DNA from: Entrophospora sp. SA101
Lineage: Eukaryota; Glomeromycota; Glomeromycetes; Entrophosporales; Entrophosporaceae
NCBI GenBank assembly: GCA_958430865.1
Contig: CAUDNR010001657.1
Span: forward strand, 66,302 to 77,683
Direction of reading: 5' to 3'
Length of the DNA: 11,382 nucleotides
In this document: positions 930-10,998 of the stretch, in pieces
Position numbering within the stretch: position 1 is the stretch's first letter
Layout: every line of letters starts with the position of its first letter
Notes under the pieces: generated by a model
Seen by the model: only the letters and a program-made list of their open reading frames with translations
Databases searched by the model: none
What the model was told of the DNA's origin: nothing
Translations under genes and position numbers: made by a program

Positions 930-1218
930 TAATGATGTATGATGAGGCTTTTAACTTTAGTCATTGGCGTAATTAAAGTATTTGACTAAAAGTAGCTTCT
1001 CACCAGGGCCATTTTTGACGATATGACTAAAGTAAAAGCCCTTGATGTAAGTAAAAACACTTGATGTAATTAAAAACACTTGACATAAGTGAAAACGCTT
1101 GATACAAGTGAAAACACTTGATACAAGCAGCAATAATGATAATGATAAAATAGGATTATCAAGTGTAAAAATGTGTGTCCCAAGACGAATAAAGAATTAT
1201 TATATCATTCGCTGTATA
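930..1218 (+). repeat. Dispersed repeat DR, copy 1
   Basis: This segment is a diverged direct copy of 10208-10490. Shared landmarks in the same order are TAATGATGTATGA at the start, CTTTAGTCATTG, TTTGACTAAAAGTAG, CTCACCAGG, a block of 19-bp tandem units, AGCAATAATGATAA, AAATAGGATTATC, and AATAAAGAATTATTATATCA near the end. Similarity stops at GTATATTG. Here the next sequence is the helicase remnant; in copy 2 it is inverted repeat B. No open frame of note and no clear terminal inverted repeat. Class unknown; it might be the non-coding end of a larger helicase-bearing element, because it abuts the helicase C-terminus, but that is inference. Confidence 0.8.
1041..1130 (+). repeat. 19-bp tandem units inside DR copy 1
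   Basis: Four full units and a partial fifth begin at 1041, 1060, 1079, 1098 and 1117. They follow the pattern CTTGAyrTAAGTrAAAAca; the last breaks off after CTTGATACAAGCAG. The matching array in DR copy 2 begins at 10317. Where copy 2 has TGACGTAA three times, this copy has TGATGTAA, TGATGTAA and TGACATAA, so every CpG has been lost by a transition. Confidence 0.8.
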
Positions 1219-1609
1219 TTGATCAATTTTATACAAGAAAAGTTGAAACCCAAGATCTCAAGCAAATCCCAAGAAGGCACACTGCTTATAGCTACGTATA
1301 CTTGACCAGGCGTAAACATTTTTTCATCAATGTTGACAGTTTTGTGAGTTAATGTCAATCCTTGGGCTTTGTGCACGGTAAGAGAGAAGGCATTATCAGA
1401 GGAAATTGTTGCCTTGATGCAAGGCTTCCATTGATATCAAAGTAAGTGGTTTCTTTTTGCACAGTCACCTTTGTGGTATTGTGGGTTGTCAGAAAGGTCA
1501 CTTCAACGTTTTGAGGATCAGTAATTTTGATTATCATGACCCATTGCAAATTCCATGATCAAACAACTTGTTGTTGAGGAACATCATTTTTGCATTTTCT
1601 TGAAGAATG
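1219..1609 (-). pseudogene. PIF1-type helicase C-terminal remnant
   Basis: Read on the minus strand, three frames together give the C-terminal part of a PIF1/RecD-like superfamily 1 helicase of the kind carried by Helitrons and expanded in some fungi. Segment 1 (1608 down to 1540) includes NAKMMFLNN and HGICNG. Segment 2 (about 1539 to 1400) includes KITDPQNVEVTFLTT and ETTYFDING. Segment 3 (1397 to 1219) includes VHKAQGLTLTHKTVNIDEKM and PGQVYVAISS. The last two match helicase motifs V and VI, but the expected motif VI arginine (VAxSR) is serine here. A small deletion separates segments 1 and 2, and one missing base separates segments 2 and 3. The N-terminal Walker A part is absent: repeat B begins at 1610, and I found no helicase sequence past its right end at 5222. 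Dead gene fragment; family call firm, Helitron origin uncertain. Confidence 0.85.
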
Positions 1610-2059
1610 ATTGAATGAATGACGTGAAACAAACAATTTTTTCGTACAACATTTTTTGATTAATATCAATATTAATTGATAAGGATGCATTATTTAAAGA
1701 ACAATCATGATTCAACAATAAAAGAAGTTCTTTGAAGATTTAAAAGTGATAAAAATAGAAACAAAATTAAAGCTTACAAAATATGTATCAAAACCTGTCT
1801 TATGTGTTATGTAAAGGTCGCTTTAAGTACTAATATTGATAAACCTATGTTATTTCAAACTCAGACACCAAAGACAGCTCAAGCATACTATCAATATTAT
1901 TGCGTATTACTATTATAACTAACTTCAAAGTTAAAATTTTGAAAAAACATTTACATTTTATGAAATGTAATAATAAAAGAATGGTTTTAATTTGTAAAAA
2001 AGAGGAAAAAATAAGTAGTTTAATGAAGTAAAATTTCTAATTCAAATTATAACATTTAT
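1610..2059 (+). repeat. Repeat B, copy 1, left part (split by piggyBac)
   Basis: This is a close inverted copy of 10531-10998. Shared blocks, read on the plus strand here, include ATTGAATGAATGACGTG at the start, TCGTACAACATTTT, AACAATCATGATTCAACAAT, CTTATGTGTTATGTAAAGG, CACCAAAGACAGCTCAAGCA, ACTTCAAAGTTAAAATTTTG and AGTAGTTTAATGAAGT. The rest of the repeat resumes at 5180 after the piggyBac element. Together the two parts make about 490 bp. The outer ends resemble each other inversely (ATTGAATGA against ATTGCAATGA), so B may be a MITE-like element with weak inverted ends; no target duplication around B could be recognised. Confidence 0.85.
2058..2059. repeat. 2-bp AT left target copy of piggyBac element
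   Basis: The bases AT lie directly before CCCTTAAA and again directly after TTTAAGGG at 5180-5181. In the uninterrupted B copy the corresponding place reads TTTATAAA, with a single AT at 10531-10532. This makes AT the apparent duplication. Confidence 0.6.
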
Positions 2060-2071
2060 CCCTTAAATGAA

Positions 2072-2095
2072 ATTGCGTCCAAATCTGGACGCAAT
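2072..2095. repeat. Left subterminal palindrome of the piggyBac element
   Basis: A 24-bp hairpin-forming sequence with 10-bp perfect arms ATTGCGTCCA and TGGACGCAAT around a 4-base loop AATC. The reverse complement of the right-end palindrome is identical to it, and identity extends to 29 bp when neighbouring bases are included. It starts 12 bases from the left tip. It is probably a transposase-binding site, by analogy with the internal inverted repeats of the moth piggyBac. Confidence 0.85.
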
Positions 2096-2836
2096 TTACA
2101 ATTGTGACTCAAAAATTATAAAAAAAGATATTTTCCTGCAGTCTCACCACAACCTTTCTTATTTCATAAATGATATTCAAAACCCTCTACTTCTATTAAA
2201 AAAATGTATTTTGGGGTTACATATTACAAATAAAGAAATAACATGTGTAAAAACAAAAAAGTTTTCTTTGCTGATCATTTTATAATAAAATGAAATTCCG
2301 ATGGAGTTTGAAATCCTATATGCAATACTAATTAAAGAATGTTTCTAAAACCATCGTTGTTAATTAACTGCTTGTGGGACTCATTATATTGATATTTTTG
2401 TGTTTTGGAAAATAGACATAATAAAATATGGAATATATTAATAGAAATAAATGTATTTTCGATTTCAATATTAATATTAATATTAGTAAATACATACGGA
2501 AAAGACATTTATACTATTACTGTCTTAAATATGGAAATGGTAATGAAAAAGCATTCTCTCCTATGGGCGATCCCATATTAGTTATTAATTATGAGTATTA
2601 CTTGAAGGAATTAAATTCCTGAAAATTGTAAATAACTTTGATCTAAATTTTTTATAAATACCAGGACCTTCAGACAAATAAAATCCAACTCAAATTATTT
2701 ATTTGAAAATCAAACTCAATATTTGAATAAAAAATAAAACAATTTTTAACAATTTATTTTTAATCTTGAAATAATTGTTTTTAATAAAAGTCAAATTTTA
2801 ATTTAACAATAAAAACTACTTTTAATAAAAATCAAA
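2096..2836 (+). other. AT-rich 5' region of the piggyBac element
   Basis: About 740 bp between the left palindrome and the transposase start. It contains two short open frames (2067-2285 and 2428-2622) with AT-driven composition, rich in Asn, Ile, Lys and Tyr, and no family signature; I do not regard them as genes. A 17-bp near-identical direct repeat, TTTTAATAAAArTCAAA, occurs at 2779-2795 and 2820-2836, the second copy ending at the start codon. The region presumably holds the transposase promoter, but no specific element can be picked out of the A+T background. Confidence 0.5.
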
Positions 2837-4741
2837 ATGAATCCTGAACAAAATATTAATATTTTTGAAGATTCCAACGATCCCAGCAATGGATATTATA
2901 TTGCTAGTATTACAAGAAGGCTGGGTGGTTTTTATGATAATGAATTATCTGAAGATTTTAATGATCCAGAAACAATCAATGATAATGAAGATGGCGAGGA
3001 TGATGAAGGTGAAACTTCAAGTTTTAGTAAAATTAGGAGCAGTAGAGAAATCAGAAGCAACTGTGGAAGAAGAGAAGGAACTAGAGGTGGTAGAGACACA
3101 CAACAAATTGATCTTCCAGATCCACCATATTTTAATCAATTTAATCATCAATTACCATTGCATGATTCTGAAACAAATTTGCCATACGAATTTAACAATC
3201 TTGATCTTGTCAATCCTATCCAAATTTTTAAATTATTTTTTACAAATACTATTTTGAGGACAATTGTAAGCAATACCAATATCTATGGTAAAAGTAAAAA
3301 CGGAAACTTATGGATAGACATTGACTTGTTTGACTTGCACATTTGGCTAGGAATAATCATTTATGCAGGTTTATTTAAAACACCATCAATTCGGGACCTT
3401 TGGAATAAGGATATAAAAATGCCAATACACCCCATTGCATCATATATGCAGATTAGAAAATTTGAAAAAATAAAAAACTTCCTACATATTTCAAACATAG
3501 AGGAGGCTCATCCATTTTGGTATTCTAAACTTGAACCATTAGCATCCCATATAAACACAATATCGCAATCCATTTTCACTCCATCATCTAATGTTTCTGT
3601 AGATGAAATGATTATAAAATTTTGTGGCAGAAGTGCACATACCTTTAGATTAAAAAATAAACCAACACCAGAAGGGTATAAAATCCTAGCTTTATGTGAT
3701 GCAGGATACACTTTCTCTTTCATATTTACTTCTAGAACTGAAAAAGAAGGTGAAGTTCAATCAATTGGAAATCTTGGTAGAATAGGAAGTCAAGTTGCAC
3801 ATTTAGCTTCCAGATTACCATCACATAAAGCATTTAATATTTACATGGATAATTATTTCACAAGTATCCAGTTATTTAAATTTTTACGTGAAAAGGGGAT
3901 TGGTGCATGTGGGACCGTTCGTACAAATTCTTCAAGATTCCCCTCTGTTCTTAGAATAAAAAATAAAAAGTTAGATTGGGACACACTCTCTGGTGTTGTT
4001 ATTGATAATGAAGTATTGGCAATATTGTGGATAGATAATGGTCCTGTTACAATGCTATCCACAATACACAATATTGTTGGTGATGAAAATAAAATAAATA
4101 GAAACAGACGTCGCCCACGTCTAACAAGTACCAATGCAGCCAAAGTAAACAAAGTCTTCGGTAACAGCACAAGAAAGATATTGTCAATCCCCAAAATAAT
4201 CAATGATTACAATCACCACATGGGTAGTGTGGACATTGCAGACCAGTTGAGGTGTTATTATTCAACGCAACAAAAAGTCAGAAGAACCTGGATGCCTATA
4301 TTTTTCTGGTTGTTGGATATTGTAATCATCAATTCTTATTTAATATATAAAAAATGGTATAATAATGAAATGACTCATAAAGAATTCAGTTTAAAACTTT
4401 CATGGGAATTAATTGAAGAAGGATTAGATAAAAACAATGAAAGAGAAACCCGCGGACATACCATACTTGAATCATCTTCATCTTCATCCAGAGCTTCCTA
4501 CATTAAGCAAAGATCAGAATTAATCACGGAAAGGTTAGTGATTGAAAATAATCATCTTCCAGAATATAGAGAAAATAGAATTGCGTGTGAATGGTGCAAA
4601 TTTGAGACCCAAAGGGACGAAGGAAAATCTCATAAGTCTCAAAATCGTTCTTATATTTATTGTACAGCATGTAATGTTGCATTGTGTTGTTCTCAAGCTA
4701 GAAACTGCTATATAGATTACCACACAGAGACAGATTGCTAG
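2837..4741 (+). CDS. piggyBac-type transposase, intact
   Basis: 634 residues, about the usual length of the family (roughly 550-650). Residues 1-90 are acidic (E/D-rich at 37-60) and then basic and Gly/Arg-rich (66-86). The transposase core (DDE_Tnp_1_7-like) spans about 120-510. The catalytic aspartates stand in the expected motifs: D256 in SVDEM, D338 in YMDNYFTS and D466 in GSVDIADQ, with D469 matching the extra conserved aspartate of the moth enzyme. GRSAHTFRLKNKPTPEGYKI after the first aspartate and the RRTWMPIFFW and NSYLIYK stretches after the third are also typical. The C-terminus (584-634) has a cysteine-rich zinc-binding domain with C584, C587, C609, C612, C617, C618, C624 and C634, used by the family to bind the transposon ends. 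No frameshift, internal stop or intron is seen. It cuts and pastes its own element in the nucleus. ATG 2837 is chosen as the first methionine of the frame, in an A-rich context. Confidence 0.93.
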   Translation: MNPEQNINIFEDSNDPSNGYYIASITRRLGGFYDNELSEDFNDPETINDNEDGEDDEGETSSFSKIRSSREIRSNCGRREGTRGGRDTQQIDLPDPPYFNQFNHQLPLHDSETNLPYEFNNLDLVNPIQIFKLFFTNTILRTIVSNTNIYGKSKNGNLWIDIDLFDLHIWLGIIIYAGLFKTPSIRDLWNKDIKMPIHPIASYMQIRKFEKIKNFLHISNIEEAHPFWYSKLEPLASHINTISQSIFTPSSNVSVDEMIIKFCGRSAHTFRLKNKPTPEGYKILALCDAGYTFSFIFTSRTEKEGEVQSIGNLGRIGSQVAHLASRLPSHKAFNIYMDNYFTSIQLFKFLREKGIGACGTVRTNSSRFPSVLRIKNKKLDWDTLSGVVIDNEVLAILWIDNGPVTMLSTIHNIVGDENKINRNRRRPRLTSTNAAKVNKVFGNSTRKILSIPKIINDYNHHMGSVDIADQLRCYYSTQQKVRRTWMPIFFWLLDIVIINSYLIYKKWYNNEMTHKEFSLKLSWELIEEGLDKNNERETRGHTILESSSSSSRASYIKQRSELITERLVIENNHLPEYRENRIACEWCKFETQRDEGKSHKSQNRSYIYCTACNVALCCSQARNCYIDYHTETDC

Positions 4742-5138
4742 TCTTGTTTTTTTAATTTTATTATTTTATTATTTATTTTGGTTACACAATACTTGAAAAT
4801 CTATACGTAAGTTCTTTCTTTATATTTAAAAAAAAATCGTAGCCTAAATTAGCATCATTTTTCTAAATAAAGTTGTTAAATGGAACATGTATTATTACAT
4901 ATCTTACGGTTTTAGGCCTGGTTTCAAATGGTGAAATTTTTTACTAATCACAACTTACAAAAAACCAAAAATTAGTTTTTTTTTTATTTTAGTATCAATA
5001 AAACTTCTACAAAAAATTTTTTTTATTAAAAACGAATGTTTATACATAAATTTCATAACCTTTTCTATCGAAAAATCAAAAAAAATTGGTATTAGTTAGT
5101 GATTTTTTTTGTCTAGTGGGGTCTACAATTTTTTGAAA
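4742..5138 (+). other. AT-rich 3' region of the piggyBac element
   Basis: About 400 bp between the transposase stop and the right palindrome, with long T and A runs and no open frame of note. AATAAA at 4865-4870 is a candidate polyadenylation signal for the transposase transcript, but such hexamers are frequent by chance at this base composition. Confidence 0.4.
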
Positions 5139-5162
5139 ATTGCGTCCAGATTTGGACGCAAT
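5139..5162. repeat. Right subterminal palindrome of the piggyBac element
   Basis: Same 10-bp arms as the left copy, with loop GATT, in inverted orientation. It lies 17 bases from the right tip, against 12 on the left, so the two ends are asymmetric by about 5 bp, reminiscent of the unequal spacers of the moth piggyBac. Confidence 0.85.
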
Positions 5163-5179
5163 TTCTGTTCGTTTAAGGG

Positions 5180-5221
5180 ATAAACTTCCCATGATAATTA
5201 TTCTTCTTGTATCATTGCAAT
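5180..5221 (+). repeat. Repeat B, copy 1, right part
   Basis: Begins with ATAAACTTCCCAT immediately after the piggyBac tip and ends with ATTGCAAT. It matches the inverse of 10491-10532 in the uninterrupted B copy (GAATAATTAT and ATTGCAAT shared). Beyond 5221 the two loci differ. Confidence 0.85.
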
Positions 5222-8276: not shown

Positions 8277-9115
8277 ATCAAGATAATTATACTCGCTTAA
8301 TCACCTTGACAATGGTCAACAATGCAAAAGCGTTTCCTGTCACAGCAAACCTTACTGTCCGCACAGCTCCTTCTTTGAGTGCTAAAAAAGTTCGTACTGT
8401 TCCTATCGGTTCACATGTTGATATAGTTTGCCAAACCACTGGTGACACTGTTCAGGGCATCAACATCTGGGATAAGTTGATTGATGGAAACTTTGTCTCC
8501 GATGTTTTCGTCAAAACTGGCACTTCTGGTTTTTCTCCGGACCTTCCACGTTGTAAAAACACTTCATCTTCCAATATTGGTTCCCCCAACAATGGCAAAA
8601 TTAATAACGAGGGCCTTGAGCTTATTAAAGATTCGAGAAATTCGAAGAAAATTTTTACAATGATCCTGTGGTAAGTTTGTCCATTCTTGTTTTATTTACA
8701 CTGACAACAATTGAATATACGATTAATAACTAATTAAATATAACATAAGGGTATCAAAACCATTGGTTATGGTCATGCTTGCCATGTCAACAATGTTGAT
8801 GACATCAAACCACCCATAACTATTGCCCAAGGCGAAGCTTTACTTAGGAAAGATTTAGTTACGTTCGAAAAGGGTATTAGCTCACTCACCAATGTCAGTC
8901 TCACTTCCAATCAGTTCTCCGCTTTGGTTTCATTTGCCTTCAATCTTGGCTGTAATACCTATAAAAAATCTACATTACGCAAGAAAATTAATGAAAGTGA
9001 CATTGAGGGCGCTTCCCTTGAGTTTGGAAAGTATATTTATGGTGGTGGAAAGATATTACCCGGTCTGGTGAGACGCCGTGAAGCTGAGAGAGCATTGTTC
9101 TGTAAGGATAATTAA
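8277..9115 (+). pseudogene. GH24 phage-type lysozyme with SH3-like domain, two exons, broken
   Basis: Lysozyme that cleaves peptidoglycan between N-acetylmuramic acid and N-acetylglucosamine, probably secreted. Counting from ATG 8312, residues 12-71 form an SH3-like (SH3b) domain (LTVRTAPSL, GINIWDKLIDGNFVSD), followed by a Ser/Asn linker and the GH24 domain. The catalytic E, D and T occur with the T4-lysozyme spacings (9 and 6) in EKFEENFYND and DPVGIKT, followed by IGYGHACH and, near the end, PGLVRRREAERALF. Exon 1 ends at 8670, a GT-AG intron spans 8671-8749, and exon 2 runs 8750-9115. Exon 1 from ATG 8312 is 359 nt: one base is missing near 8632-8635, where GATTCGAG would be in frame as GATTTCGAG, just before the catalytic glutamate. 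Upstream, KIIILA (8280-8297) and LITLTMVNNAKA lie in two frames that would form a signal peptide; again one T is missing, and the start position (8277-8279) is ATC. Either a young pseudogene or homopolymer sequencing errors. Confidence 0.85.
8671..8749 (+). other. Intron in the lysozyme gene (79 bp)
   Basis: Begins GTAAGTTT and ends AACATAAG. A fungal-type branch site ACTAAT lies at 8729-8734, about 15 bases before the acceptor. Joining CCTGTG to GGTATC gives DPVGIKTIGYGH, the conserved GH24 motif, so both splice sites are well supported. The intron is phase 0 if the upstream one-base loss is allowed for. Confidence 0.88.
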
Positions 9116-10207: not shown

Positions 10208-10490
10208 TAATGATGTATGACGATTTTTTTGACTTTAGTCATTGACGTAAATAAAGTATTGACTAAAAGTAGTCTCTCACCAGGATTATGTTGACGTTTT
10301 GACTAAATTAAGAGCCCTTGACGTAAGTAAAACTACTCGACGTAATTAAAAGTACTTGACGTAAGTAAAAATGTTTGATACAAGTAAAAACACTTGATAC
10401 AAGCAAGCAATAATGATAAAATAGGATTATCGAAAGTGTAAAAATGCGTGTCCCGAGGATAATAAAGAATTATTATATCATTCTGTGTAT
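10208..10490 (+). repeat. Dispersed repeat DR, copy 2
   Basis: Direct, diverged copy of 930-1218, with the same order of motifs from TAATGATGTATGA to TATATCATTCTGTGTAT. It runs straight into inverted repeat B at 10491, whereas copy 1 runs into a helicase remnant at the same point. The upstream flanks of the two copies are unrelated, so this is a dispersed repeat and not a simple duplication of the locus. Confidence 0.8.
10317..10408 (+). repeat. 19-bp tandem units inside DR copy 2
   Basis: Units begin at 10317, 10336, 10355, 10374 and 10393 with pattern CTTGACGTAAGTAAAA. The first three keep TGACGTAA, which resembles a CRE/ATF-type bZIP site; the last two read TTGATACAAG as in copy 1. Confidence 0.75.
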
Positions 10491-10998
10491 ATTGCAATGG
10501 TGCAAGAAGAATAATTATGATGGGAAGTTTATAAATGTTATAATTTGAATAGAAATTTTACTTCATTAAACTACTTATTTTTTCCTCTTTTTTACAAATT
10601 AAAACCATTCTTTTATTATTACATTTCATAAAATGTAAATGTTTTTTCAAAATTTTAACTTTGAAGTTAGTTATAATAGTAATACGCAATAATATTAATA
10701 GTATGCTTGAGCTGTCTTTGGTGTCTGAGTTTGAAATAACATAGGTTGATCAATATTAGTACTTAGAACGACCTTTACATAACACATAAGACAGGTTTGG
10801 TACATATTTTTGTAAGTTTTAATTTTGTTATCACTTTTAAATCTTCAAAGAATTTCTTTTATTGTTGAATCATGATTGTTCTTTAAATAATGCAATTTTC
10901 GTTTTCAATTTACATCCTTATCAATATTGATATTAATATTGATATTAATCAAAATCAAAATGTTGTACGAAAAAATTGTTACACGTCATTCATTCAAT
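10491..10998 (-). repeat. Repeat B, copy 2, uninterrupted and inverted
   Basis: 508 bp, the reverse complement of the B copy split at 1610-2059 and 5180-5221. It lacks the piggyBac element; the insertion point reads AAGTTTATAAATGT at 10525-10538. There is no coding content. Its far end lies 70 bp before the start codon at 11069. Differences from copy 1 are scattered substitutions and small indels, e.g. extra bases near 10890-10915. Confidence 0.88.
10525..10538. other. Empty-site equivalent of the piggyBac insertion
   Basis: AAGTTTAT here corresponds to the inverse of ATAAACTT after the right tip, and ATAAATGT to the inverse of ACATTTAT before the left tip. The two overlap by only AT at 10531-10532, giving the uninterrupted target TTTATAAA. 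Confidence 0.8.

Follow-up and report, generated by a model that had tools for sequence, protein, structure and literature searches.

Transposons of the piggyBac type normally target TTAA and duplicate it; can an enzyme of this family use another target and another length of duplication? The question is raised by a stretch of 11,382 nucleotides (nt) from the glomeromycete Entrophospora sp. SA101 (GenBank assembly GCA_958430865.1, contig CAUDNR010001657.1, positions 66,302 to 77,683 of the forward strand; hereafter the window), in which an intact piggyBac-like transposon is seated in TTTATAAA with the AT duplicated. We put the probability at roughly 0.87 that it represents a lineage of fungal piggyBac elements whose integration target is NTATAN, most often TTATAA, and whose insertions duplicate the AT in the middle. 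The element in the window is full-length and was probably active recently.

The complete element measures 3,120 bp (2060-5179, plus strand), its borders being set by comparison of the junctions with an unoccupied copy of the target and by end matches across the genome. It begins with the terminal inverted repeat (TIR) CCCTTAAATGAA (2060-2071, plus strand) and ends with its counterpart (5168-5179, CCCTTAAACGAA on the minus strand). Inverted repeats place the left flank (1686-2059, plus strand) in the same host repeat family as an uninterrupted copy on the minus strand (the B copy, 10491-10894), and the right flank (5180-5221, plus strand) is the continuation of the interrupted repeat. With a slash at the border, the left junction at 2051-2062 reads AACATTTAT/CCC (in longer context ACATTTAT/CCCTTAAATGAA) and the right junction at 5177-5188 reads GGG/ATAAACTTC (in longer context TTCGTTTAAGGG/ATAAACTT). 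The B copy reads ACATTTATAAACTT on the minus strand at 10525-10538, its unoccupied target being TTTATAAA with TTATAA at 10529-10534. When the flanks are joined over one AT, 403 of 431 aligned columns match the B copy and the junction carries no gap, which bears out the initial annotation in its view that AT alone is shared between the flanks. The extent it gave, 2058-5181, takes in the AT copies on both sides of the element itself, the left at 2058-2059 (within TTAT, 2056-2059) and the right at 5180-5181 (within ATAA, 5180-5183). Direct and inverted repeats lie about 9 kb apart in the window (996-1221 with 10291-10494, and 1686-2039 with 10550-10894); they include 19-bp tandem units, and the inverted pair, 1686-2039 with 10550-10894, corresponds to the host repeat in which the target lies.

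Unoccupied versions of target sites were sought by searches in which 40 of 411, 40 of 63 and 40 of 137 candidates were scored, the first two with the joined flanks of 14 other copies with both ends found and the last with the window-target repeat (loci are cited by our handles where they have to be told apart). For the window target, 38 of the 47 returned matches, the B copy included, span the junction and extend 10 bases or more to either side of it. Twenty of these other than the B copy were fetched, and 19 have the exact length of the one-AT flank join. Eight of the 20 read exactly TTTATAAA, ten carry GT for AT (mostly TTTGTAAA), one carries CT and one lacks a base. Some of the fetched copies sit in duplicated segments and are thus not independent. 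Because so many unoccupied repeat copies fit the one-AT join, the unoccupied state of the window target is, from these comparisons, best taken as ancestral. At the C1455 site the one-AT junction is exact in C1739, C1015 and C724 and present with one substitution in C1435, while the left flank of C2101 and the right flank of C538/C1756 meet in clean one-AT junctions in C951 and C398. Agreement lies within microsatellite variation at the C1782 site and is one of length at the C424 site, where paralogs carry substitutions around the target. For the remaining queried sites no clear unoccupied copy was found among the candidates scored.

Copies were also collected genome-wide by their end sequences and their flanks aligned, as the initial annotation had proposed. 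Querying the genome with the left end gave 43 matches and with the right end 42, of which the weakest reflect cross-matching of a shared palindrome. The tip CCCTTAAAYGAA occurs 77 times in the genome, as against 22 occurrences of a reversed control pattern; leaving aside the unfetched C2000:29415, these matches collapse to 56 distinct flank-plus-end pairs, all of which were counted, and ends with the tips CCTTAAACGA or CCCTTAAACGAT were kept apart. The tip is preceded by TTAT in 39 of the 56, by CTAT in seven, by ATAT in two, by GTAT in one and by other bases in seven. TAT therefore stands before 49 of these distinct ends, and this preference is above chance, since TAT precedes only 47 of 2187 other CCC triplets in the fetched loci. 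TTAA outside CCC, which the initial annotation had named as telling against an AT duplication, precedes none of the 56. Among the seven ends lacking TAT, one belongs to a decayed copy (C28/C1761) and six have no element-like interior by eye, in line with the 22 matches of the reversed control.

Both ends were found for 24 copies. Left out of this count were three chance pairs (those of the left ends L028:833 and L070:6, and L082) and duplicates (C257 and the second C1728 copy); the right border of C1455 was moved one base inward so that its tip ends GG, C156 ends GGA, and the left flank of C1485 is N apart from TAT. TAT on the left accompanies ATA on the right in 21 of the 24, and none has an identical 4-mer on both sides. 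There are 20 distinct left and 21 distinct right flanks among them, so that the copies are partly non-independent. Together with five sites of which an unoccupied version was read (at three the junction is exact, at two it is consistent), these copies uphold the suggestion of a TTATAA palindrome with a 2-bp duplication. The flanks also refine it: the core of the target is TATA, with the outer base favoured, not obligatory. Four copies (C1253, C2101, C1756 and C424) hold a full-length transposase frame without stops at 99-100% protein identity, which suggests recent activity.

Flanks are shuffled between the near-identical 3.1-kb copies C1253, C1756, C538, C424, C931 and C2101. C1756 has its left flank in common with the window and its right flank in common with C538, and in the unoccupied C951 the left flank of C2101 is followed by the one that C538 has on its right; such mixing points either to recombination between the copies or to chimeric assembly.

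Several observations weigh against an AT duplication in NTATAN. Three of the 24 two-ended copies (C28, C1761 and C1540) break the rule, although they look decayed, and C254, one of the ends kept apart from the 56, reads ACT/CCTTAAACG. The mixing of flanks between some full-length copies means that a few flank pairs are not original insertions. Near the unoccupied junctions, small insertions set the C1455 paralogs apart from the occupied copy, by 5-10 bp shortly to the right, C951 and C398 carry 22 extra bases a little to the right, and C1101 is noisy at the junction itself; at the C1782 site the agreement holds only to within microsatellite noise, and at the C424 site only in length. A 2-bp offset is moreover unexpected from the structure of the Trichoplusia ni (T. 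ni) piggyBac transposase, in which the geometry of the dimer and the position of its active sites are said to mandate an offset of 4 bp (PMC7351741). Finally, the support comes from one genome and from sequence comparison.

Other readings of the same junctions must be set against an AT duplication. Sequences before and after insertion would be identical if tips of the form T-CCC...GGG-A had been placed bluntly between TA and TA of TTATAA with nothing duplicated, and the TAT that adjoins CCC in 49 of the 56 ends suits a fixed T no less than it suits a fixed target; the same ambiguity is left open for the ATon elements (PMC3422177). We nevertheless regard blunt insertion as unlikely, given that the T. 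ni enzyme shares this fold and makes its two joins 4 bp apart, an offset that gives rise to a duplication (PMC7351741), and that piggyBac tips are CC[C/T]T (PMC2872659). A copy with a clearly different core, able to separate the two, was not found among the copies examined. A conventional 4-bp duplication of relaxed sequence, TTAT or ATAA, has a parallel in about 10% of Daphnia Pokey insertions, where such duplications show that ATAA half-sites are tolerated in the superfamily (PMC3849761). It is highly improbable here, and refuted for the copies examined, as TTAT on the left meets ATAA on the right at one insertion, in none of the 24 copies do the two sides carry the same 4-mer, and TTATAA or CTATAA is read at the clean unoccupied sites.

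The initial annotation had also considered that the true borders might be the TTAA just inside the tips (CCC-TTAA...TTAA-GGG), with CCC and GGG derived from the host. The tip does contain TTAA, but CCC adjoins many flanks that are unrelated to one another, and the unoccupied sites read lack it; on these two grounds the inner borders are refuted, and we give them practically no weight. Nor was CCCTTAAGGG, whose retention in empty alleles had been named as a further sign against the AT duplication, kept in any of the unoccupied sites read. The unoccupied copies could also be excision products, TTATAA being the footprint of an original TTAA site. piggyBac elements excise precisely, and excised and never-occupied sites would look alike. 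Excision on such a scale is implausible, because 38 of 47 matches span the junction and 10 of the 20 fetched carry GT for AT, and a TTAA origin would predict TTAA flanks; the location of some unoccupied copies in duplicated segments tempers the argument from numbers. We reject this reading, which we hold to be very improbable, on the junction-spanning copies and the GT variants. Membership in Tc1/mariner is not borne out either: a duplication of TA would call for TTTAAA in place of the observed TTTATAAA, and the unoccupied sites fit AT.

The enzyme that accompanies the AT duplication is of the piggyBac type. The transposase (2837-4741, plus strand) is a stop-free frame of 634 amino acids that matches PF13843 at residues 126-501 with 201.6 bits, against a cut-off of 22.4, and comparison with piggyBac and piggyBat in the PDB showed the piggyBac transposase fold (Foldseek E 3.6e-26 for piggyBac versus 2.8e-3 for the best Mos1 row). 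Conservation was read from an alignment, A1, of the query with 30 proteins hand-chosen from 120 listed matches (214 found). Residues D256, D338 and D466, with D469, are predicted to be catalytic; the first three align with piggyBac D268, D346 and D447 and are kept in 31, 29 and 29 of the 31 proteins. A C-terminal Cys/His-rich domain begins at residue C584 (C584, C587, C609, C612, C617, C624 and H629 being at least 90% conserved in the 31 rows); it aligns with the C-terminus of piggyBat and is a predicted zinc domain. The ends, too, are of piggyBac type, with short inverted repeats of the CC[C/T] kind (CCCTTAAAYGAA tips) and a palindromic internal repeat. The element is therefore a piggyBac member by enzyme, fold, tips and internal repeat and a variant by target, with an AT duplication in NTATAN and no TTAA at any of the 56 ends.

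In T. ni piggyBac, R275, Y283 and K290 of the omega loop contact the hairpin, and Y283 stacks on target base A3 (PMC7351741). At these positions the 31 aligned proteins have S at 275 in 22, R at 283 in 26 and P at 290 in 27, whereas D268, D450, Y439 and N440 are kept in all 31 and D346 and D447 in 29 (piggyBac numbering, mapped by reading one gap-free stretch of the comparison with piggyBac). Within the half-site, the base that corresponds to A3 is the least constant, at 79% of 48 distinct flanks that had been chosen for TAT. The correlation between omega-loop replacement and altered target is suggestive.

Related families in the same genome carry the same junction: TAT/CCCTTAAAC is present at both ends of one copy each of the C1910 (68% identity to the window transposase), C896 (50%) and C1444 (53%, partial) families; no clear element ends were found at a fourth transposase locus, C609. 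A distant PF13843 relative, C1110/C1521, is bordered as TTAA/TGAGTATCCGTTA...TAACGGATACTCA/TTAA and serves as a TTAA contrast within this genome. It was found by the Pfam model and is absent among the matches listed for the window protein; C1110 and C1521 share flanks and represent one insertion. The element (L171, C1110:9972-12574) has the TIR TGAGTATCCGTTA and a frame broken into several pieces. Profile scans with A1 of genome and viral contig collections confirmed no relatives with DNA context outside this genome, and the 38 stretches returned by a viral-contig scan for TATCCCTTAAACGAA were taken for chance.

Inside each tip lies a palindrome. On the left it is the 28-nt AAATTGCGTCCAAATCTGGACGCAATTT (2070-2097), starting at nt 11 of the element, and on the right (5137-5164) it starts at nt 16, 5 nt further in. 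Arms of at least 11 nt were found by script, with one mismatch allowed, in 38 of the 49 TAT ends and measure 11-15 nt. The arms co-vary between subfamilies: 95.4% of 131 cells pair in 11 sequences, 22 of them changed on both sides, the paired percentage being raised by the hand-picking of these palindromes among ends that have one. Covariation reached 0.495, with 0.110 for shuffles and no more than 0.107 after sliding; two of the five measures were weaker, the pairs changed on both sides (6 versus 4.1, with 49 of 500 shuffles as high) and the pair types (11 versus 7.6, 19 of 500). In T. ni piggyBac a palindromic 19-bp repeat is bound by a dimer of the C-terminal domain (PMC7351741), and by analogy the subterminal palindrome here presumably docks a dimer of the Cys/His-rich domain. 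The co-varying arms suggest co-evolution with the DNA-binding domain of the transposase, a dimer site that evolves with the protein seeming likelier to us than an RNA hairpin.

A mechanism may be proposed from the sequences. Each protomer would join the 3' GGG of the element to the phosphate on the 5' side of an ATAA half-site; the half-sites would overlap by 2 bp (TT^AT^AA), as against 4 bp in TTAA, and the resulting 2-bp gap would then be filled. The half-site would differ from that of T. ni piggyBac in its first base (5'-ATAA versus 5'-TTAA), and the overhangs left by excision would presumably be complementary AT. For the T. ni enzyme a T0-A3 hydrogen bond most likely underlies the choice of TTAA (PMC7351741). 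We lean, with reserve, towards the broader proposal that in an entire fungal branch of piggyBac the offset of strand transfer has gone from 4 to 2 bp on a near-identical half-site, 5'-ATAA, while excision involves an AT hairpin or overhang of 2 nt, and that this shift is tied to the replacement of R275, Y283 and K290.

Among known systems, T. ni piggyBac and piggyBat (PF13843) resemble the window lineage in fold, catalytic triad, C-terminal Cys/His-rich domain and CC-type tips, and T. ni piggyBac also in its palindromic subterminal repeat and left/right asymmetry (PMC7351741). They differ in target (TTAA, 4 bp, there; AT within TTATAA, 2 bp, here), in the omega-loop R/Y/K contacts, which are replaced here, and in the palindrome, which is longer in the window lineage and varies between subfamilies. 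Ti_tr1 of Tuber indicum is a published precedent for a 2-bp duplication in a fungal piggyBac: its piggyBac-like transposase is accompanied by such a duplication in place of TTAA, but the duplication is TA, not AT, the inverted repeats are 52 bp long, and no unoccupied site is described in the available portion of the paper (PMC3864998). Daphnia Pokey shares a minority (about 10%) of insertions at TTAT or ATAA, but its duplications are of 4 bp and TTAA accounts for 88% of insertions (PMC3849761). ATon of Aedes aegypti inserts at AT, duplication versus insertion between A and T being left open; it is non-autonomous, has tips ATAGGCC (ATon-I and -II) and is given no known transposase or stated piggyBac link in the text available (PMC3422177), and a link to the window lineage would be speculation. 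PiggyMac-dependent excision of internal eliminated sequences in Paramecium likewise involves a piggyBac-derived enzyme and TA-centred, mostly non-TTAA sites, but the enzyme is domesticated, the overhangs are of four bases and the reaction is excision, not integration (PMC3408717). In an account of Rhizophagus transposable elements piggyBac is mentioned once, as a hidden Markov model used, in the portion available (PMC11075540). A piggyBac element with an AT duplication in TTATAA was not found reported in a literature survey that was partial and excluded subscription papers and Repbase Reports.

Elsewhere in the window, a two-exon-like gene on the plus strand (8306-8674 and 8750-9112) encodes a phage-type lysozyme domain (PF00959, 119 bits), preceded by a weak SH3_3 match that stays under the Pfam cut-off (20.5 bits). 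The best named relative is from Rhizophagus irregularis (66%). A minus-strand frame at 1203-1436 has a helicase-like motif (AFSLTVHKAQGLTL), its sole Pfam match being a helicase model below cut-off; we take it to be reminiscent of PIF1/Helitron helicases.

TTAA is treated as the signature of piggyBac both when elements are annotated and when target choice and traceless excision are explained in structural terms. Searches that demand TTAA flanks would miss elements such as this one. The same fold with a TTATAA target and a 2-bp duplication offers a natural comparison for the residues that set offset and target; if the offset shift is true, the piggyBac fold does not by itself dictate an offset of 4 bp, and the lineage may yield an integration tool with a different target.

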